Positions 7,441-56,523 of a stretch of 64,000 bases of DNA are shown here, in pieces (position 1 is the stretch's first letter; the number at the start of each line of letters is the position of its first letter). Under the pieces are notes generated by a model that was given only the letters and a program-made list of their open reading frames with translations, made no database searches and had not been told where the DNA came from. The stretch is from Arthrobacter sp. MYb213 (GTDB lineage Bacteria > Actinomycetota > Actinomycetes > Actinomycetales > Micrococcaceae), in contig NZ_PCQA01000006.1 in the NCBI RefSeq assembly GCF_002979915.1, positions 186,001 to 250,000 on the forward strand, written 5' to 3'. The translations under genes were made by a program, and so were the position numbers.

Positions 7441-8502
7441 ATGCAGAACAAGAGCCAGTCCCCAGACACAGATGATCCGCAACGTGAACCGTTGCCAGCG
7501 ACACGGCTATCGACCTACGCCAGCATAAAATCTGTGGCCCCCGGGCTCGCCGTTTGTCTCGTCACCGGCCTGTTGTGCATTTTCGCAAGTCGATTCCTCA
7601 GTGGATTCAGTGCTCTCCTGTTAGCTATCCTGCTCGGTGCGCTCTGGCGCAATCTGGCCCCGGTACCCCAGGTCCTGAACCCCGGCATCGCGATCGCGTC
7701 AAAGAAGTTACTTCGCTTAGGCATCGTGTTCCTCGGCCTGCAACTATCCTTAGGTACCATCATTGGACTCGGCCCCGGGGTACTTTTGGTGGTGCTACTT
7801 TCAGTCGGCGTGACATTTGCAGCCACCTTGTGGATCGGTGGGAAAATGGGCATCGAGCTTCCCCAGCGACTTTTGATCGCCACCGGGTTTTCAATTTGTG
7901 GCGCAGCCGCAGTGGCGGGAACCGAGGGCGTCACCCGAGCCAAACAAGATCAGGTGGCCACTGCTATCGGACTGGTGGTACTTTTCGGCACGCTCATGAT
8001 TCCGGCAATGCCGTTGTTGGGCGCCTTATTGGGCTTTGATGACCGCAGCACCGGGATGTTAATTGGTGCTTCAACCCATGAGGTCGCGCAAGTGGTGGCG
8101 GCCGGTGGATCGGTCAGTGCCGCAGCCTTGGCCGTCGCGGTGACAGTCAAGCTGGCCCGAGTGGTGCTACTAGCGCCAATCATTGCTGGTCTTGGACTTT
8201 ATATGCGGCGCAAGCACTCGGTAGAAGGTGGGAAAAATCCGCCCCTGATCCCACTGTTCGTTCTAGGATTCATCGTGGCAATGCTGCTGCGCACCACCGG
8301 ACTATTACCCGAGTCGTTGCTTTCGGTCATGCAGAACCTGCAGACACTCTTACTGGCGGCCGCGATGTTCGCATTGGGCCTAGGCGTGCATCTGCGCAGC
8401 ATCGTGAAGTCCGGTGGTAAGGCGCTGGTGCTGGGTCTATGCGGCACCTTGGTGATCATCGTTGTGGCTACCGCCGGCACCATGCTTTTCCCTCCCGCAT
8501 AG
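7441..8502 (+). CDS. yeiH: YeiH-family putative sulfate/anion exporter
   Basis: The 353-residue integral membrane protein belongs to the Cons_hypoth698/YeiH family. About ten hydrophobic helices are visible, along with family blocks LLAILLGALWRN, LNPGIAIASKKLLRLGIVFLGLQLS, ATGFSICGAAAVAGTEGV and GASTHEVAQVVAAGG. Members are proposed to export sulfate or sulfonate-related anions, and a divergent LysR regulator is typical. The N-terminal 25 residues are hydrophilic and cytoplasmic. The substrate is not proven for this family. Confidence 0.9.
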   Translation: MQNKSQSPDTDDPQREPLPATRLSTYASIKSVAPGLAVCLVTGLLCIFASRFLSGFSALLLAILLGALWRNLAPVPQVLNPGIAIASKKLLRLGIVFLGLQLSLGTIIGLGPGVLLVVLLSVGVTFAATLWIGGKMGIELPQRLLIATGFSICGAAAVAGTEGVTRAKQDQVATAIGLVVLFGTLMIPAMPLLGALLGFDDRSTGMLIGASTHEVAQVVAAGGSVSAAALAVAVTVKLARVVLLAPIIAGLGLYMRRKHSVEGGKNPPLIPLFVLGFIVAMLLRTTGLLPESLLSVMQNLQTLLLAAAMFALGLGVHLRSIVKSGGKALVLGLCGTLVIIVVATAGTMLFPPA

Positions 8503-13649: not shown

Positions 13650-14555
13650 CTAAACAGACTTAACTTCCCGCCCAAGCATCCTCTGGATATGTCTGGCCAC
13701 TACATCTCGTCCGGGTCTATCCATCACTATCGTGTAATGGTTAGTATCTGGCACTTCTTCGATCTGCAGCCCGCGCAATTTCTGCCCCCACGACTGCACA
13801 TATTCTTTGGTATACAGCCCTGGTTCGGCACCCATCAGCCCCTTCGGCGAGCGCAAGAAGGTCACTGGATGGCGCAATTCTTCCAAAGCTTTAAACAGTG
13901 AGGCTCCCCGGTGTAGTTCTGCCGTGTCCTCGGCCAATGCCTGATATTTCGTCGCTGGGCGCAGTTGTGGGGCGACTCCGTCGAGGTCGTATTTGATATA
14001 TTCATCGACCAACTCGTTCCAGTTTTCGCTGAAGGCCGGGTGGGGTTTCCAAAATTCCCGGTAGGCGGCCACCGATTCGAAAGTCATCGACAAGCGTTGC
14101 GCTGCTGGGCCCAATACTGCTTCGATAATTTGTTCGTCATCCAAGCCCTCGGGCACCTGCAGTGGCAGTCCCCCATCAACAAGCAACAGCGAGGAAACGA
14201 GCTGTGGATACATATCCGCGAATACTAGGGAAACAAAAGCACCCATCGAGTGTCCAATCACCGGGATAGGGCCACTGGCAAAGTGTTCCACTACCTGTGC
14301 AAGGTCAGCCGCGTGTACCGGCATCCCGTAGGGTCCAGGTAACTGGTTGCTTCGTCCCCGGCCACGCAAGTCCGGTGCAATGACCCGCACCCCGGGCAGG
14401 GCCTGGGCCACCATGGCCCAGGCGATATGTGAGGCGGTCACTCCGTGGATGAGCAATACCGTCGGCGCCTGCGGATCTTCGGGTCCCCACAATCCCACCT
14501 GCAAGGGGCCACCTGTAACGTTTACCGTCTCGGTGCGGTAGTTGGTCGCAATCAT
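13650..14555 (-). CDS. Alpha/beta hydrolase
   Basis: The protein of about 301 residues has the alpha/beta-hydrolase layout: TVLLIHGVTASHIAWAMV with the oxyanion region, DLRGRGRSNQ, the nucleophile elbow GHSMGAF, and a late His in DTNHYTIVM. The start at 14555 overlaps the dehydrogenase stop by four bases (ATGA), so it is translationally coupled as the last gene of the long operon. Next to a 3-hydroxybutyrate dehydrogenase and an acyl-CoA ligase it may hydrolyse an ester, lactone or 3-hydroxyacid oligomer to release the acid. The substrate is unproven. Confidence 0.87.
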   Translation of the reverse strand: MIATNYRTETVNVTGGPLQVGLWGPEDPQAPTVLLIHGVTASHIAWAMVAQALPGVRVIAPDLRGRGRSNQLPGPYGMPVHAADLAQVVEHFASGPIPVIGHSMGAFVSLVFADMYPQLVSSLLLVDGGLPLQVPEGLDDEQIIEAVLGPAAQRLSMTFESVAAYREFWKPHPAFSENWNELVDEYIKYDLDGVAPQLRPATKYQALAEDTAELHRGASLFKALEELRHPVTFLRSPKGLMGAEPGLYTKEYVQSWGQKLRGLQIEEVPDTNHYTIVMDRPGRDVVARHIQRMLGREVKSV

Positions 14556-49722: not shown

Positions 49723-49845
49723 ATGAGTAACACTTCTGACACCGCTACGACGATTGAGCAGTCTATCGAGATCGAAGATCTAATCATTACTGATGAAGAC
49801 CTGATGGATGTACAGCTTCGGGCTCGAATGGATGTCGGTCACTAA
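49723..49845 (+). CDS. Putative RiPP precursor peptide (40 aa)
   Basis: This short gene encodes 40 residues. The first 30 are Ser/Thr-rich and then strongly acidic (IEQSIEIEDLIITDEDLMDV); the last ten are QLRARMDVGH, with two Arg and one His. An acidic, hydrophobic leader followed by a short core of different character is the typical shape of ribosomal-peptide precursors. A GAGAAAG ribosome site lies about ten bases upstream. It is followed by a perfect hairpin and then by an operon of three JmjC oxygenases, an arginase-family enzyme and an exporter, whose known chemistries act on Arg, His or Asp. The maturation site is unknown. Confidence 0.7.
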   Translation: MSNTSDTATTIEQSIEIEDLIITDEDLMDVQLRARMDVGH

Positions 49846-49856
49846 GCCAGTTTCAT

Positions 49857-49894
49857 CAATCCAGCCTCGGTCGCAGAATACTGAGGCTGGATTG
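49857..49894 (+). terminator. Attenuator-like hairpin between precursor and enzyme genes
   Basis: A perfect 12-bp stem (CAATCCAGCCTC 49857-49868 with GAGGCTGGATTG 49883-49894) sits between the peptide gene and the first oxygenase. Without a long T-run it probably terminates only part of the transcripts or stabilises the peptide mRNA, giving more precursor than enzyme. Confidence 0.7.
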
Positions 49895-49911
49895 GTTCGA
49901 GAAAGTACAGG

Positions 49912-51072
49912 ATGACTACGATTAAAAACGATGCTTGGTCGCGATTTGCACAAGAGCATGGGCCGGACTTTGCAACGGTGAAGTATATTCCCTCGCTTGT
50001 CACTGAACCCGAAGCAGTAGCCTCCGCGATCGGTCATTCTTTAAAGAATGCGACCGATCCCCACGTGCATGAAGCTACAGGACTCCCTCGGATCAGGGTT
50101 TTCGGTCCTTCTCAGCTAGATTATGAGGCCTCAGAAGCAGTAGTACATTCCAAATACGATGGCTCCAATCTGGTCGATTGGCTACAAGTAGTTACGGGCC
50201 GCAAAGATGTGTGCGCCGCGTTCAATGGGGTGGAGACCTGGTCGTCAAAAACCCGTTCCATCATCTATCGAAGTATTGTCGAGCCGATGGTCACGGCTTG
50301 TGGTGTTCCACCACGAGGATTAGACTTTTATTCTTTTATTGCGATGTCCGGGTTCACTCCCTTCGGCATACATTCGGATCCCGAGCCGTCATTTATTTTC
50401 CATCTGGGGCCAAACACGAAAACTGTGTGGGTTTGGGAAAAAGACACGTTACCGAAATTGCCGGATAATCGCGAGATCAGCCTCCATACGGACAAATATC
50501 TGAAGTCTGCCGATCATGAGTTCACGCTCGGCCCTGGAGATTTCTTATGCATACCCGCAGGTCGTTTTCATCTATTCCGAAACAATGGACCGGCTGTCTT
50601 TCTAGGAATGTCCTACTATCGGGAGAATAACCACGACGAATTGCTTCAAGCAATTTCAGCGCTGGTCCGCCGGTCAGGAGATCAACACGACCCCGTGAAC
50701 ACAGCTCTGGCTGCGGCTGCTAATGGTGAAATCCGTCGTGAACTGGATCGCCGTCAATCTCAACGTTTAAGCAGGGGCCATCTGGGGCCTTATCGAATAT
50801 TGCCAGTTGAACTCTTTAACGTCGACCTCCCCGCTGAATGCCTAGATGTCCCTTTCACTGTCAACAACAACCAAATTTCGGTCATGGGCCAGAGTCTTTC
50901 GATACCAGAGAATATCTCAAATGAAGATATCTCTCGCTTTTTCCAACCGGGAAAAGTACTCCGGGCTGTCGACCTTCAAAAACTAACGGATGATTCTTCC
51001 GCGGGGAACGCTCTCTTTATTGCATTACTACGTGTGGGTGCAACCTTCCAGACTGCTGAGGTAGGTTCATGA
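49912..51072 (+). CDS. JmjC/cupin-like 2-oxoglutarate oxygenase 1 of the peptide cluster
   Basis: The 386-residue protein shows an iron facial triad His154-x-Asp156 (FGIHSDPEPSFIFHLG) and His220 (PGDFLCIPAGRFHLFRN) in a double-stranded beta-helix. About 160 further C-terminal residues are helical or winged-helix-like. Fe(II)/2-oxoglutarate oxygenases of this type hydroxylate amino-acid side chains. Its HSD site is clearly different from the other two oxygenases in the operon, so each may modify a different residue. Its ATG follows ACAGG; its stop overlaps the next gene (ATGA). Confidence 0.8.
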   Translation: MTTIKNDAWSRFAQEHGPDFATVKYIPSLVTEPEAVASAIGHSLKNATDPHVHEATGLPRIRVFGPSQLDYEASEAVVHSKYDGSNLVDWLQVVTGRKDVCAAFNGVETWSSKTRSIIYRSIVEPMVTACGVPPRGLDFYSFIAMSGFTPFGIHSDPEPSFIFHLGPNTKTVWVWEKDTLPKLPDNREISLHTDKYLKSADHEFTLGPGDFLCIPAGRFHLFRNNGPAVFLGMSYYRENNHDELLQAISALVRRSGDQHDPVNTALAAAANGEIRRELDRRQSQRLSRGHLGPYRILPVELFNVDLPAECLDVPFTVNNNQISVMGQSLSIPENISNEDISRFFQPGKVLRAVDLQKLTDDSSAGNALFIALLRVGATFQTAEVGS

Positions 51073-52106
51073 GTACCTGGGAAGCAGTTCAAGCAGCACT
51101 AGGTGTGGAATTATTTCCCTTCGGCGAATTTAGGTCAGGTCATGTAGATCCTTCGACTCTGACGGCTTTGGGCTGGCCCTCTGTCAACCGCATAATCAAG
51201 TACTCGAATTTCGAACCGGGAACCATCAAAGTAGTTCCGGAGACGGATCTGGACCCCGGACTCTACATTGAAGCGAAAATGGGTGGCGGAACGATTATTG
51301 AACGTCAGCCAAGAACTAGGCCCTTCACTGAACTACTCCGGGAAGGGGCAACCCTTGTACTCAACAAAGCAGATCGGGCCTTACCTGAGCTTTCTGACTT
51401 CGTAGAACGGTTGATGTATACACAAAATGAAGCGGCCTGGGCCAACGGATATGCGTGCTGGTCCAAGAATTCGGCTTTTGGGCGGCATGCCGATTCCCAC
51501 GACACCATAATTGTGCAAACGGAAGGTCGAAAGCATTGGCGCGTATACCGCGGCAATGGATCTGACGCCGAGCTAGTCTTCGACGATATTCTTGAAATCG
51601 GTGACTTTATACATGTTCCTGTCGGCTGGGATCACGAAGTAACAGGTGTCGGATGCGAAAGTCTTCATTGGACTTTCGGCGTTGCTCATACCTCGCGCAC
51701 CGAAACGATAAAAGAACTCATTAATTTCGGATGGAGTCTTGGCCAAATCGATCGTTTGACTGAGGAATCCCTACGCGGTCGTCTTTTACACTTGCGCGGA
51801 GAACTTAGCACAGAACACCGAAAAGGACTCTCACTCCCGTGGCGCGTACATGACTCCTCATTAAGTGGCGCAGTCATCCGCTGGGCTGGACGCTTCAAGC
51901 CCAGCTTAGAAATTAAAGAAGAACAGTTCCATATCAGAGGGTTAGGGAAACTGGTAAAACTCCCATTGACCATGCGACCTGTTCTCGAAGTGCTCATTTC
52001 TGGTGAGGGCTTGCACTTTGATAGCTTGCCTAACTCCGCGCAGGAAGTCGTACTTTCCATGTTTATCGCCGAGCTATTGATTGCGGAGCATGCAGACCAA
52101 AAATAA
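51069..52106 (+). CDS. JmjC oxygenase 2, ribosomal-oxygenase (YcfD/ROX)-like
   Basis: The 345-residue protein has the ROX-type core FGRHADSHDTIIVQTEGRKHWRVY with His140 and Asp142, then DFIHVPVGWDHEV with His189, and a C-terminal winged-helix-like segment. Known relatives (YcfD, MINA53, NO66) hydroxylate Arg or His on ribosomal proteins. Here the likely substrate is the short Arg/His-containing peptide encoded upstream. It overlaps its upstream neighbour by four bases and the arginase gene by about 17 bases. Confidence 0.85.
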   Translation: MSTWEAVQAALGVELFPFGEFRSGHVDPSTLTALGWPSVNRIIKYSNFEPGTIKVVPETDLDPGLYIEAKMGGGTIIERQPRTRPFTELLREGATLVLNKADRALPELSDFVERLMYTQNEAAWANGYACWSKNSAFGRHADSHDTIIVQTEGRKHWRVYRGNGSDAELVFDDILEIGDFIHVPVGWDHEVTGVGCESLHWTFGVAHTSRTETIKELINFGWSLGQIDRLTEESLRGRLLHLRGELSTEHRKGLSLPWRVHDSSLSGAVIRWAGRFKPSLEIKEEQFHIRGLGKLVKLPLTMRPVLEVLISGEGLHFDSLPNSAQEVVLSMFIAELLIAEHADQK

Positions 52107-53247
52107 TGCAACTAACGACGTTGAGTGGGTGTGGCATCCCGCATTGCTCGAACAAGACTCAAAACTCTTTAATCCAGCCGAGGGTTCTTCTCTGGAATTA
52201 AACGAGGCAGTGTTAAAACTTCGTGCCCGCTCTTCTGTCGCGCGTTCAGAACTAAACCCTGAAGTTTTCGACAAACTTAGTCGCTGTCGTTTCCTTATCC
52301 CCAAAGAATGTGCGCTCGTTGCAACGCATGGACTCCTAAAATCAGCCAAACCCGTCGTCGAAGTCGAATGCGCTCAACATTCGACACCTTGGGGCCTGAT
52401 TGGTGCGGGTGTTTGGCAAAACCCCGACCCAGATCTCGCAGTTCACGACGTGCTCGCCGGACTCCGCCGCGGACTGCAACGCTCTCTCGCTACCGTCACA
52501 AATGCCAATTCTTGGGACTGGAATGAGATGAGCACTGCGGAAAATCCTCCTTGTAGCGTCGTTGACCATGGAAATCTTATCGTTGATTCGCGCGTTGACA
52601 CGGCACAAGACATCGCAACCAGACTTTTAGCGGCAACGCGCACAGTTGGTGCCCAAGGCCACAACCCAGTTGTCATCGGCGGAGATCATTCTATTGCCTA
52701 TCCCGTTATCACTGCGCAACGAGAACGATGGCAGCAGCTAGTAGTGGTGCACCTAGATGCCCACGCAGATGCTCGTCCAATTCCTCAAGGACAAGAGACT
52801 GCTGATTGTGGAAACTTCGTCACTTGGTGTTTGGCAGACGAGCCGGACTTGCCATGGCTAACTCTTGGAGTGCGCGGTTACGACCCAGAGTTTTCGATGT
52901 CTTCACCTTCAAATGCAAAGCATGTCTCCTTTATCAAAGCATCAGATCTTGGATCTAAACAATGTTTCGATGAAATTGACCGGCATTGCCAGGGACGCCC
53001 AGTGCATCTGAGTATCGATATCGATGTCCTTGATCCGGTCTTCGCACCTGAGGTTGCTTACCCGGCCATTGGAGGGGCGGATCCAGACATTATTAAGGAA
53101 ATTATCAACCGAATAAGTTCAACGGGAACAATCGTAGGAGTCGATTTCACCGAGGTTTGCGGCCCAATGACCCGACGAAATTTGGCTGCAATGCATGCCA
53201 TAGACATGCTCACTCACATTTTAACGCCGAAAAGGACTATTTCTTGA
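52090..53247 (+). CDS. Arginase/ureohydrolase-family protein, candidate peptide arginase
   Basis: The protein of about 385 residues has the full binuclear-manganese site of ureohydrolases: VIGGDHSIAYP, VVHLDAHADARP and SIDIDVLDPVFAP (His200, Asp223, His225, Asp227, Asp310, Asp312). An N-terminal extension of about 90 residues (WVWHPALLEQDSKLFNP..., ELNPEVFDKLSRCRFLIP) is absent from metabolic arginases and could bind the peptide leader. Peptide arginases convert Arg to ornithine in some RiPPs; that role is inferred here from the Arg-bearing precursor. The ATG at 52090 lies inside the previous gene; a TTG at 52081 is possible. Confidence 0.83.
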   Translation: MQTKNNATNDVEWVWHPALLEQDSKLFNPAEGSSLELNEAVLKLRARSSVARSELNPEVFDKLSRCRFLIPKECALVATHGLLKSAKPVVEVECAQHSTPWGLIGAGVWQNPDPDLAVHDVLAGLRRGLQRSLATVTNANSWDWNEMSTAENPPCSVVDHGNLIVDSRVDTAQDIATRLLAATRTVGAQGHNPVVIGGDHSIAYPVITAQRERWQQLVVVHLDAHADARPIPQGQETADCGNFVTWCLADEPDLPWLTLGVRGYDPEFSMSSPSNAKHVSFIKASDLGSKQCFDEIDRHCQGRPVHLSIDIDVLDPVFAPEVAYPAIGGADPDIIKEIINRISSTGTIVGVDFTEVCGPMTRRNLAAMHAIDMLTHILTPKRTIS

Positions 53248-54563
53248 CATCTCAATCCGTTCGAAGTGGAAATCCTTTTCGATTAAGCAGTTTCCGCCTC
53301 TACTACTTGGGCCAGTCGATCTCATTCTTGGGCGATGGAATCGTCCCGATGACCTTTGCGTTCGCGGCCCTCGCCGTGTCTGATTCAGGATGGGGTATGC
53401 CTATCGTGCTTCTGTCGTTGTGGGGAACACGCATGTTGCTCATTGCTCCAGGAGGGAACGTTTCAGACAAGTACAACCGTGTCACCGTCATGGTTGTTGC
53501 TGATCTGGTCCGTCTCTTGGCTCAAATCATTCCGGTCTTTGCTTTCATCACAAATACAGCAACGTTATGGCATCTGGGGATCTCAGCGGCGCTGTACGGT
53601 GTCGGAACTGCTTTCTACATCCCCGCTAGCATTGGCCTGTTGCCACGGATTGTGCCAAAAGAATCGCTGCAAAAAGCGAATTCGTGGATCGATTTAACCC
53701 TAAACACAGGGCTTCTAGCTGGTCCAGCATTAGCAACGATTCTTGTCTCACTAGGCGGAATACCCACTGCATTACTCTTTGATATTGCAACGTTCCTCGT
53801 TTCCATAGCATGTTTGTCATTCCTATTCCGCTTGTCCAAGGGTCAGCTTTTGATCAATGGCTTCGCGGAAAGCGATGACGACAAAACCGCAGAATCCGTA
53901 AATGAGAAAAAAGAAGACGAGATACCCCCAGGTTTCCTCAATGGGTTGCGCCTCTTGCCTCGCTACCCGGGTGTTTTGTGGCTGATGTTACTTTCGTGTC
54001 CCGTGCAGTTGAGTATCGCTTCCATTAGCGTCCTCGGCCCAATAATTGCTAGAGATAGATTGGGCGGTATCGCATTCTGGGCCAGCCTTGCGACCGCACT
54101 TGCCGCCGGAGGGCTTGTTGGTTCTTTCCTTGCCGGATGGGTCAAAGTTAAAAAGCCGGTAGTGCTTGTTCTGGTCGTATTGGCGATTTGCCAGCCTATA
54201 CAGCTGGTTCTCTTTGGCTTAGGACTGAATATTATTGTTCTGGCCGTTTCCTTTGCAGCTACAGCCATCCTTGTAACCGTTGCTGGAATCCTTTTTGACA
54301 CGTATGTCCAAATGACGGTGCCTGATTCGGCATTATCCCGGGTGGGATCAATCGAACAAACGTTGATGTCTGTCATGGTTCCGATTGGGTTCGCAGTCAG
54401 TTTGCCCATGGCTCAGTGGATGGGGTCTTCGCAGTATCTATATTTGTTAGCGGCAGTCATTGCTTGTTGCGCACTGATAGCCATGTTTTTCCTCTTCCCT
54501 CGTCAGTCAAGAATTGATGAGTCCCAAACACGAATGATCCAAAGAGTAGGGAGCCACAAGTGA
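53244..54563 (+). CDS. MFS transporter (DHA3-type), probable product exporter
   Basis: The protein of about 439 residues has twelve predicted membrane segments, an FRLYYLGQSISFLGDGI first helix and the motif-A loop GGNVSDKYNRVTVMVVADLVR. A hydrophilic stretch of about 40 residues (DDDKTAESVNEKKEDE) separates the two halves. I choose the TTG at 53244, which overlaps the arginase stop as TTGA and has AAAGGA upstream. In a peptide biosynthesis operon it is best read as the export and self-protection pump. Confidence 0.85.
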   Translation: MTSQSVRSGNPFRLSSFRLYYLGQSISFLGDGIVPMTFAFAALAVSDSGWGMPIVLLSLWGTRMLLIAPGGNVSDKYNRVTVMVVADLVRLLAQIIPVFAFITNTATLWHLGISAALYGVGTAFYIPASIGLLPRIVPKESLQKANSWIDLTLNTGLLAGPALATILVSLGGIPTALLFDIATFLVSIACLSFLFRLSKGQLLINGFAESDDDKTAESVNEKKEDEIPPGFLNGLRLLPRYPGVLWLMLLSCPVQLSIASISVLGPIIARDRLGGIAFWASLATALAAGGLVGSFLAGWVKVKKPVVLVLVVLAICQPIQLVLFGLGLNIIVLAVSFAATAILVTVAGILFDTYVQMTVPDSALSRVGSIEQTLMSVMVPIGFAVSLPMAQWMGSSQYLYLLAAVIACCALIAMFFLFPRQSRIDESQTRMIQRVGSHK

Positions 54564-55588
54564 CAGAGCTGAGAGATTTGCTAACGCAACTGGGAATGCC
54601 CACTGGAGCGGAGCTAAATTGGACCACCACGGCCGAAGGGCGTCCCGGAAGAATCGTCGCCATGCATGGACGACAAGTAGAAGTCATCGCGGTGAATGGT
54701 GGTGCGCTGGAACATATTGTACTTGACCTTTCGCGCAACCTCGCCACTACCCCGGTGACTGGAGATTGGGTGATTGTCAACGCCGATCGAGTTGTCGCTC
54801 TCGGTGGTCGCACTACCAACCTTTCGAGACCAGACCCAAGCGGTCAAGGAGTTCAAGTTCTTGCCGCCAATATCGATCACGTGATGATTGTCCTCTCGCT
54901 GGAGCGGGGACTGAATCTTAAGTCCTTGGAACGCCTTTCGGTCATGGCCTGGGACAGTGGCGCATTGCCGATTACGGTGCTCACCAAAGCCGATACCGTC
55001 GAGAATCTCACGGAAGCAGTTGCGCAGGCAGCGCTGGCTGCGCCCGGAACTGAGGTTTTATTGACCAGCTCACTGACCGGACGCGGTTTGGAGCGACTGC
55101 GCGAAATTATGGCTGTCGGGACTACGACCACCATGCTTGGCGCTAGTGGGGCAGGCAAAACTTCCTTACTCAATGCGCTAGAAGACAAATCAGAAAAGGT
55201 CCGTGAAGTTAACACTTCTGGCGAAGGGCGTCATGCGACTTCTGCACGCCGCCTCTACCGATTATCAAGCGGAGGGGTATTGCTTGATCTGCCCGGTATT
55301 CGCTCACTTGATTTGCTCGCCACCGATGAAGGAATGGAGGAGACTTTCGTTGAAATTGCAGAATCTGCTCTGCGTTGTCGTTTCCATGACTGCGAGCATG
55401 GCACCGAACCGGGATGCGCCGTCCAGGAAAGTGTCAAAGCAGGGGAAATCCTCCAACGACGTCTCGATAATTGGCACAAAATCCGCAGAGAAATGTCTTA
55501 TCAAGAACGCAAAGGTGACGCAGCGTTAATGGCAAAACAACGAGCGGAGTGGAAAAATATGACTAAGAGCCATAGGTCAAGAAAATGA
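54560..55588 (+). CDS. rsgA: RsgA-type ribosome small-subunit-dependent GTPase
   Basis: The 342-residue protein is a complete circularly permuted GTPase: N-terminal OB-fold, TVLTKADT (G4), SSLTGRGLE (G5), GASGAGKTSLLNAL (G1), LLDLPGIRSLDL (G3) and the zinc site CRFHDCEHGTEPGC. RsgA acts on maturing or stalled 30S subunits. The GTG start overlaps the exporter stop (GTGA) with AGGGAG upstream, so it is made as part of the peptide operon. This placement suggests immunity or a ribosome-linked target rather than housekeeping. Confidence 0.9.
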   Translation: MTELRDLLTQLGMPTGAELNWTTTAEGRPGRIVAMHGRQVEVIAVNGGALEHIVLDLSRNLATTPVTGDWVIVNADRVVALGGRTTNLSRPDPSGQGVQVLAANIDHVMIVLSLERGLNLKSLERLSVMAWDSGALPITVLTKADTVENLTEAVAQAALAAPGTEVLLTSSLTGRGLERLREIMAVGTTTTMLGASGAGKTSLLNALEDKSEKVREVNTSGEGRHATSARRLYRLSSGGVLLDLPGIRSLDLLATDEGMEETFVEIAESALRCRFHDCEHGTEPGCAVQESVKAGEILQRRLDNWHKIRREMSYQERKGDAALMAKQRAEWKNMTKSHRSRK

Positions 55589-56346
55589 TGCCTCAGCGAA
55601 TACCCGTAGTCGAGCAGTGGCCGCTTACTGCATCGGCACTAGATGGGCCGATTTGTGTGAAATCGCAAACAGATGAGTGGCCAATTAATCGGCTCGTGCG
55701 CTCCCAGACGCTCCAAATCGTCTACGCAGAACAAACCGTTAATGTCGAAACTCAGGATGGAACGATCTCCTCAACGGTGGGTGACTACTTTCAATTGCTC
55801 GCAAAAGGAGACGGGCTAGATACTTATTTGAAGGGTTGGACGGTCTCAAACTACCTCTCCGACTTCGCGAAACTACCGTTACCAGCTGTATTTCAGAGCT
55901 GGTTTGGCGACCTTCCCCACGGATCACGACCTGACTGGAATTGGATTTTCGTCGGGCCCAAAGGTAGTAACTCGGCATTGCACATCGATGTGATGTGCAG
56001 TTCTGCATGGAATCTTCTGGTGAGCGGAAGAAAGAAATGGTTATTCCAGTCTCCGGCGCTCGCTGCTGACGCAGGATTGCTGCAAGATTCTCTGGTGGTG
56101 TCTTCTGGAAACGAAGCCCGAATCCAATACACGCATATTCAAGAACCTGGCGATGTAGTCATCGTTCCGGGCGGGTGGGCCCACGCAGTGGAGAACTTGG
56201 ATCTGACAGTTTCGCTCACTGGCAACTGGGTCAATAGTTCTAACGCACAGTTGGTCGAAGCAGATCTCGCGCTCCATGAATCGGACCCTTGGCGCCAAGT
56301 GATGGCTTCGCTACGCGCGCGATATCAAATCGGCTTCAAAATTTGA
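55585..56346 (+). CDS. JmjC/cupin_8-type 2-oxoglutarate oxygenase 3 of the peptide cluster
   Basis: The 253-residue protein has a JmjC core: GPKGSNSALHIDVMCSSAWNLLVSGRKKWLF with His133 and Asp135, then PGDVVIVPGGWAHAVENLDL with His200. It is shorter and lacks the winged-helix tail of the other two. The ATG overlaps the RsgA stop. It is the last gene of the operon, and its last 160 bases are repeated in decayed form just downstream. Confidence 0.85.
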   Translation: MMPQRIPVVEQWPLTASALDGPICVKSQTDEWPINRLVRSQTLQIVYAEQTVNVETQDGTISSTVGDYFQLLAKGDGLDTYLKGWTVSNYLSDFAKLPLPAVFQSWFGDLPHGSRPDWNWIFVGPKGSNSALHIDVMCSSAWNLLVSGRKKWLFQSPALAADAGLLQDSLVVSSGNEARIQYTHIQEPGDVVIVPGGWAHAVENLDLTVSLTGNWVNSSNAQLVEADLALHESDPWRQVMASLRARYQIGFKI

Positions 56347-56366
56347 TTTAGGGTACGTCACACCCG

Positions 56367-56523
56367 TTTCGCTCACTGACAACTGGGTTAATAATTCTCA
56401 CGCACAGTTGGTCGAAGCAGATTTCGCGCTCCAAGGATCAGGCCCTTTGGCGCCAAGTGATGGCTTCACTTGGCGTGCGACATCTATTCGGCTTCAAAAC
56501 TTGACGTTGGGTGCATCACACCC
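56367..56523 (+). pseudogene. Decayed tandem copy of the 3' end of oxygenase 3
   Basis: Bases 56367-56523 closely match 56210-56365 (offset 157-158), beginning TTTCGCTCACT and ending TCACACCC in both. Substitutions, an in-frame loss and the absence of a start make it non-coding. It marks a tandem duplication at the right edge of the cluster. Confidence 0.85.

Follow-up and report, generated by a model that had tools for sequence, protein, structure and literature searches.

A conserved short peptide encoded beside ribosomal-oxygenase-like enzymes in Arthrobacter sp. MYb213, the candidate precursor of an undescribed RiPP family

Does the 40-codon open reading frame (ORF) at the head of an operon in Arthrobacter sp. 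MYb213 encode the precursor of a ribosomally synthesized and post-translationally modified peptide (RiPP), and what would the neighbouring genes make of it? The operon lies in the window analysed here, positions 186,001-250,000 (64,000 nt) of contig NZ_PCQA01000006.1, where the ORF is followed by a hairpin and by genes encoding, in this order, oxygenases A and B, a ureohydrolase, a major facilitator superfamily (MFS) protein, RsgA and a JmjC oxygenase. The first-pass annotation of this stretch had described the ORF, the hairpin and six genes with every junction overlapping, and this layout was confirmed, with four overlaps of 4 nt and one of 17 nt. We conclude, with a probability of roughly 0.6, that the operon represents an undescribed RiPP family in which C-terminal residues of the peptide would be hydroxylated, and deguanidinated where a ureohydrolase is present, and in which an extra RsgA would protect the 30S ribosomal subunit. 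The conserved precursor, the operon, the enzyme families with their metal ligands and the extra RsgA copy are directly supported; the proposal is strongest on that precursor and its link with A, and weakest on which residues are modified, how the leader is removed and what the target is.

A conserved precursor peptide beside oxygenase A

Gene A served as the search query, and relatives of A are thus what the related loci have in common. When 84,980 species genomes were searched with a profile of A, 28 loci came out, of which 13 (L027-L038, L044) carry an ORF ending in DVGH or HVGH and five (L039-L043) one ending in MVASH, while none was found in ten (L045-L054). Searching plasmids with the A protein (P0002) by tblastn gave 31 records, and the ten that were examined comprised six of the DxGH type (L023-L026, L055, L056, from Streptomyces, Klebsiella and Pantoea) and four with RPD-repeat peptides (L057-L060). 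The C-terminus RMDVGH is common to the window and Glutamicibacter ardleyensis (L027), which has the whole operon at 90-94% protein identity. PR[QR]DVGH is found in 13 Streptomyces loci, not all of them independent, since S. goshikiensis and S. zaomyceticus are each counted twice; RRDTGH or RSDTGH occurs on four Pantoea/Klebsiella plasmids, and PVNHVGH in Pontibacillus, with three identical tandem precursor copies. In every multi-gene relative examined, a small ORF ending in [D/H]-[V/T]-G-H adjoins gene A; that is, a dedicated ribosomal precursor gene stands beside the modifying enzymes, as is expected of a RiPP.

Among the ORFs of at least 20 aa at 20 loci, 24 of 4,204 end in [DH]xGH, and 23 of these are no more than 2 kb away from gene A; the 20 loci were picked for having such a precursor, and the count should therefore stand alongside an unselected one, in which 38 sources were taken (the window and L018-L054) and 17 of them carried DxGH-ending ORFs, 18 ORFs in all and every one at the precursor position. 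Between the window and G. ardleyensis the precursor gene differs by ten synonymous and two non-synonymous changes (pN/pS 0.056), both of the latter in residues 4-5, with residues 6-40 identical, and pN/pS across 14 Streptomyces precursors is 0.29. As judged from these substitutions, the ORF is a real gene under purifying selection. Conservation of the C-terminus across distant operons strongly supports the earlier reading of the small ORF as the precursor of an undescribed RiPP-type system. The first-pass annotation had further proposed a search for loci pairing such a peptide with JmjC and ureohydrolase genes, and had held that homologues lacking any small ORF would speak against a precursor. 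The small ORF proved recurrent beside A and was present in every multi-gene relative examined; the ureohydrolase is not universal, with none in Streptomyces, and the ten of 28 loci in which no ORF was found are those of distant lone A relatives.

The enzymes and the proposed modifications

Three JmjC oxygenases had been predicted in the operon (Table 1). B (P0003) and P0007 exceed the Pfam cut-off, whereas the cupin and JmjC_2 matches of A all fall below it and its identity is instead borne out by a structural model. The AlphaFold model of A (pLDDT 78.4, lower in the C-terminal quarter) has E. coli YcfD as its best fold match (E 2.3e-12, TM about 0.5), followed by other YcfD-like structures, B. 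subtilis YxbC, NO66, MINA53 and FIH. Residues H154, D156 and H220 are invariant in 23 aligned relatives (alignment A2, which excludes L040, L042, L048, L050-L054 and all plasmid loci), and His/Asp/His is the usual iron triad in such oxygenases. B is nearest to NO66 by sequence, and both A and B have the double-stranded beta-helix and HxD...H motif of ribosomal oxygenases (ROX), the HAD...H of B being read by eye. The known relatives of A, B and P0007 named here are established hydroxylases acting on side chains of Arg, His, Asn or Lys. Three strands and three helices are predicted at the C-terminus of A with low confidence, and a ROX winged helix would give the same; PHROGs linked A and B only to families of unknown function. 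In the tree of A (which excludes L018-L024, L030, L032, L034, L036, L040, L042, L048 and L050-L055), most A genes accompanying C-terminal-His peptides are separated from those that are alone or beside RPD-repeat peptides, with weak support for the split (87/77).

The ureohydrolase P0004, which carries an additional N-terminal region of roughly 100 residues, has six metal ligands that can be recognized by eye (H200, D223, H225, D227, D310 and D312, in GGDHS, DAHAD and SIDIDVLD). It matched PF00491 only and not the peptide-arginase domain PF12640, and an arginase of the OspR type is thereby ruled out. P0006 scored 127.4 bits against a cut-off of 30 for the Pfam RsgA domain and 147.3 against 100 for TIGR00157. 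The arginase-family, MFS and RsgA identities assigned earlier all hold above the Pfam cut-offs.

Table 1. Features of the operon (window coordinates)
Feature	Position	Strand	Basis and remarks
Precursor peptide gene	49723-49845	+	40 codons + stop; MSNTSDTATTIEQSIEIEDLIITDEDLMDVQLRARMDVGH; acidic leader, C-terminal core ...RMDVGH
Hairpin without T-run, between precursor and enzyme genes	49852-49901	+	-30.0 kcal/mol, z -4.48
Oxygenase A (P0002), ribosomal-oxygenase-like JmjC/cupin	49912-51072	+	Fold match and invariant His154, Asp156, His220
Oxygenase B (P0003), JmjC_2 (PF08007), NO66/YcfD relative	51069-52106	+	Pfam E 4.2e-16
Ureohydrolase (P0004), PF00491	52090-53247	+	Pfam E 3.3e-40
MFS protein, putative exporter (P0005), TTG start	53244-54563	+	Pfam MFS_1 above cut-off
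Extra RsgA copy, ribosome small-subunit GTPase (P0006)	54560-55588	+	Pfam RsgA_GTPase and TIGR00157
JmjC oxygenase (P0007), nearest solved relative JMJD6	55585-56346	+	Pfam JmjC above cut-off

In the proposed pathway, the 40-aa peptide would be the precursor, with an acidic leader recognized by the enzymes and the C-terminal ...RARMDVGH as core. The His-ending peptide is probably hydroxylated by the ribosomal-oxygenase-like enzymes. Oxygenase A, which adjoins every C-terminal-His peptide here, would hydroxylate the side chain of a core residue, with the C-terminal His as the likeliest site; B would act likewise on another residue, probably the Asp in D[V/T]GH, given that no B was seen in loci lacking this Asp. 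The ureohydrolase would convert a core Arg into ornithine (Orn), and the third JmjC enzyme, replaced in Streptomyces by a 2-oxoglutarate (2OG)-Fe(II) oxygenase, would add a further hydroxyl. The leader would be cut off by an enzyme from outside the operon, the MFS protein would export the product, and the extra RsgA would shield the producer's 30S subunits. Hydroxylation of Arg, His or Asp together with conversion of Arg to Orn, the specific chemistry suggested by the first-pass annotation, is a plausible candidate.

The enzyme sets vary with the core. Glutamicibacter has A, B, the ureohydrolase and the third JmjC enzyme with RMDVGH; Streptomyces has A, B and the 2OG-Fe(II) oxygenase with PR[Q/R]DVGH; Pantoea and Klebsiella have the ureohydrolase, A and B with RRDTGH or RSDTGH; Pontibacillus has three A-type genes and a gene with a methyltransferase domain with PVNHVGH; and Mycobacteroides/Mycobacterium has only A, with a peptide end MVASH. 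No B was seen without D[V/T]GH and no ureohydrolase without a core Arg, although five lineages do not suffice for statistics. In three of the four enterobacterial loci examined (L025, L026, L055), a GCN5-related N-acetyltransferase (GNAT) gene separates the oxygenase genes from the exporter gene, and could serve either in Orn acylation or in self-resistance.

Close relatives of P0002 are rare. In the host family they were found in one of 197 genomes, that of Arthrobacter sp. MYb213 itself, and in the host class in eight of 394, where besides its own copy there were only partial matches of 25-34% identity. Matches at E <= 1e-20 were found in eight of 392 Streptomyces genomes, four of them at E <= 1e-150, of which at least two (G586, G587) were already among the 28 loci. 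One of nine genomes of the Pontibacillus family had a relative, Pontibacillus itself, and E. coli genomes gave no megablast match to the Klebsiella operon. The genes are plasmid-borne in some Streptomyces and in all four enterobacterial loci examined, and the patchy spread suggests an accessory pathway that moves horizontally.

Two further kinds of peptide occur near relatives of A. In all five Mycobacteroides/Mycobacterium loci (L039-L043), a conserved 25-aa ORF, MRDIAVEIVVEDDEIV[S/T/A]ATEMVASH (7846-7923 or 7830-7907), lies just upstream of a lone A gene, possibly as a minimal form of the system. Tandem-repeat peptides (LKxGMRPDATD, LKTGVRPDG) accompany A relatives on three Streptomyces plasmids (L057, L059, L060) and a Nostoc plasmid (L058), as well as in two (L018, L019) of five stretches fetched among the seven other genomes of the host class. 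The three Streptomyces plasmids also hold amidinotransferase, arginine deiminase, DUF3865, desaturase and tRNA-ligase-like genes next to these repeats, and the RPD-repeat loci apparently represent a second, different ribosomal-peptide pathway.

The hairpin between the precursor and enzyme genes, also noted in the first-pass annotation, was not equalled in stability by any of 200 shuffles and is kept in G. ardleyensis (z -6.08). Stems at the corresponding place in Streptomyces have z -3.30 (L028) and -2.39 (L034), and that of L024 is not significant (z -1.67). An attenuator or a stabilizer of the mRNA is its probable role. Directly after the operon, at 56366-56504 of the window, lies a 139-bp degenerate copy of the 3' end of P0007 (87% identical), a duplication missing from G. 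ardleyensis, which has a single such stretch (14298-14435). The seven flanking ORFs are ordinary by Pfam (two phosphatases, a FabH-like protein, a GntR regulator, an asparaginase, a fumarase-class lyase and an amino-acid permease). Among the seven operon proteins and these seven ORFs (45.7-61.3 kb), Pfam found no enzymes of the lanthipeptide, lasso, YcaO, sactipeptide or graspetide classes, in agreement with the earlier statement that the operon fits no known RiPP class.

RsgA and alternative readings

RsgA is present in the operon at 13 of the 15 actinobacterial DxGH loci, and the contigs of L032 and L035, the remaining two, stop inside the MFS gene; in L034, counted as present, the gene is in two pieces in different frames. 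The Pontibacillus locus also has RsgA, upstream of the precursors. In all eight operon-bearing genomes searched the cluster gene is an extra copy, each genome having one or two more RsgA genes or gene fragments at other places, while a Mycobacterium genome with a lone A has one RsgA in total. In the RsgA tree, from which the fragmentary rows S587_1 and S587_2 were excluded, seven actinobacterial cluster copies form one clade (100/99) and the Pontibacillus cluster copy pairs with another Pontibacillus copy (97/94). A topology that keeps all eight cluster copies in a single clade fails the AU test (p 0.0018), with a caveat for long branches, and RsgA was apparently recruited into clusters twice, in the actinobacterial and the Pontibacillus lineages. 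Further RsgA paralogues of the operon-copy subfamily lie outside the operon in Streptomyces (G586, G588, G590, G591) and Pontibacillus (G589).

The first-pass annotation had listed the RsgA gene, which is indeed present, without a role. The role proposed here comes from its recurrence, its extra copies and its apparent double recruitment, which point to a ribosome-directed product or to self-protection: cluster RsgA may protect the producer's own 30S subunit, and such protection would in turn suggest a ribosome-directed antibiotic. Duplication of a core gene within a cluster is an accepted sign of self-resistance under the ARTS criteria, and the same source lists rsgA among the core genes duplicated in one strain, but not as part of a cluster (PMC9290621). 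RsgA within a cluster as a self-resistance gene was not found in the open-access literature searched. A wider proposal, that one RiPP family extends over Actinomycetota, Bacillota and Enterobacterales and makes short hydroxylated-His peptides, some with Orn, that hit the 30S subunit, the actinobacterial and Bacillota producers being guarded by an extra RsgA, is offered tentatively, as less probable than not.

Several observations weigh against the proposal. No small ORF was found at the ten distant lone A relatives (L045-L054): the Bacteroidota genes (L045-L049) have no convincing one alongside and L050-L054 have no DxGH ORF. Five Mycobacteroides/Mycobacterium loci have A only, with a peptide ending in MVASH, and RsgA is consequently outside the minimal unit; no RsgA was seen in the mycobacterial stretches examined, nor in those of the four enterobacterial loci, three of which have the GNAT gene. 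RPD-repeat peptides stand beside A relatives without a core His, which weakens the assignment of the C-terminal His, and Streptomyces keeps the core Arg without a ureohydrolase. Of the three A-type genes of Pontibacillus, which have long branches, two fall among the RPD-repeat and lone genes, and branches are long in the RsgA tree as well. The profile of A (A2) gave no clear sequence match in the PDB, only one match at chance level; the predicted structure of P0004 is poor (pLDDT 35.8). No Pfam match to a RiPP recognition element exceeded the cut-off in the four terminal stretches tested, and no leader peptidase was found by Pfam among the seven operon proteins, where a host protease is possible. 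Finally, the candidate chemistry and product are deduced from the genes themselves.

The alternative that comes closest keeps the RiPP and reads RsgA as a regulatory or growth-control gene, or as a passenger carried because synthesis stresses ribosome assembly. The enterobacterial and mycobacterial stretches without RsgA favour it, as do the same-subfamily paralogues outside the operon in Streptomyces and Pontibacillus; RsgA is, however, inside the operon at all 13 actinobacterial loci whose contig reaches that point, and its apparent second recruitment in Pontibacillus also argues for immunity. This alternative is a serious one and ranks second. Distinctly less likely is a peptide that serves as a scaffold, on which C-terminal residues are built and then released as a modified amino acid or a di- or tripeptide. 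Short leaders and an invariant last residue would suit such a carrier, and the related oxygenases beside multi-repeat peptides (LKxGMRPD) would yield several small units, but conservation spans about four to six residues and not one, and Pfam found no ligase gene in the window operon.

Somewhat more improbable again is a metal-binding RiPP, in which hydroxy-Asp, Orn and the C-terminal His would serve as ligands for iron or copper, the MFS protein being the exporter of a ribosomal metallophore. beta-Hydroxy-Asp, beta-hydroxy-His and Orn do occur in siderophores made by nonribosomal peptide synthetases (NRPS), and P0005 resembles the EntS model, albeit below cut-off (61.4 bits against 324) and less than it resembles other efflux models. 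Against a metallophore, searches allowing up to three mismatches detected neither a DtxR-type box in the window nor a Fur-type box in L026, no uptake receptor is annotated in the Streptomyces and enterobacterial stretches examined, and RsgA would be left unexplained. That the system is no RiPP at all, its enzymes modifying a cellular protein such as a ribosomal protein and the small ORF being a regulatory leader peptide, is very improbable. The resemblance of A and B to ribosomal oxygenases, the nature of RsgA as a ribosome factor and the lone A genes of Bacteroidota would fit; yet the C-terminus is conserved at the protein level and operons include an exporter, and the small ORF of Pantoea and Klebsiella, on the opposite strand, and that of Pontibacillus, in three tandem copies, can be no leader-peptide attenuator there.

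If the reading as a hydroxylated RiPP with RsgA as guard is true, it adds a RiPP family built on ribosomal-oxygenase-type enzymes, which could then be read as natural-product maturases besides ribosome modifiers, and its members could readily be mined by the C-terminal tag [D/H]-[V/T]-G-H. Should RsgA be the immunity gene, it would indicate the target before the compound is known, suggest an antibiotic scaffold, ribosome-directed and some six residues long, and open a direct route to RsgA action on drug-bound 30S subunits.

Comparison with known systems

No description of this peptide family was found in the open-access literature of PubMed Central, most subscription papers lying outside that search. 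The fold of A and the sequence of B recall YcfD, NO66 and MINA53, which hydroxylate Arg or His; A is, however, just 11-17% identical to them in fold alignments, and it would act on a small peptide dedicated to the pathway and not on a ribosomal protein. Odilorhabdins are products of NRPS. They are linear cationic 30S-acting peptides with an acetyltransferase self-resistance locus, to which the likeness of the present product is speculative, and the abstract-level text does not mention RsgA in self-resistance (PMC8749412).

The landornamide and selidamide systems likewise convert peptide Arg to Orn, through OspR (PF12640), but with another arginase family and with precursors of the NHLP/Nif11 type. 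GNAT is the acylating enzyme in selidamide pathways. The GNAT gene beside the ureohydrolase in the Pantoea/Klebsiella relatives recalls the Orn acylation described for selidamides (PMC12703449). According to the same text, the enteropeptin enzyme KgrD, an arginase of PF00491, has a RiPP precursor as its substrate, as is proposed here, whereas enteropeptins contain thiomorpholine and N-methylated Orn (PMC12703449), and the window operon has no methyltransferase or radical S-adenosylmethionine (SAM) gene.

The closest parallel is with the biphenomycins (bip/pbs), which share a short precursor with the core at its extreme C-terminus, a peptide arginase, a JmjC hydroxylase and an MFS exporter (PMC12707348; PMC12257519). 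Together with the enteropeptin arginase (PMC12703449), they provide a precedent for JmjC enzymes and peptide arginases in RiPPs. Biphenomycin clusters differ in having a multinuclear non-heme iron-dependent oxidative enzyme (MNIO) and a B12 radical SAM enzyme that act on FRF, neither of which is in this operon, and their arginase PbsE belongs to PF12640 and not PF00491 (PMC12703449). A biphenomycin-type RiPP is ruled out here, the operon proteins being of other families by Pfam and the core, RMDVGH, having no Phe. From these comparisons and the absent MNIO and B12 radical SAM enzymes, the system appears to be a RiPP, but a member of no RiPP class tested. In the biphenomycin pathway, BipC/PbsE is the arginase and BipG a JmjC ornithine gamma-hydroxylase that is reported to need Orn (PMC12707348); since BipG needs Orn, the order arginase then JmjC would be a sound model for the window operon.

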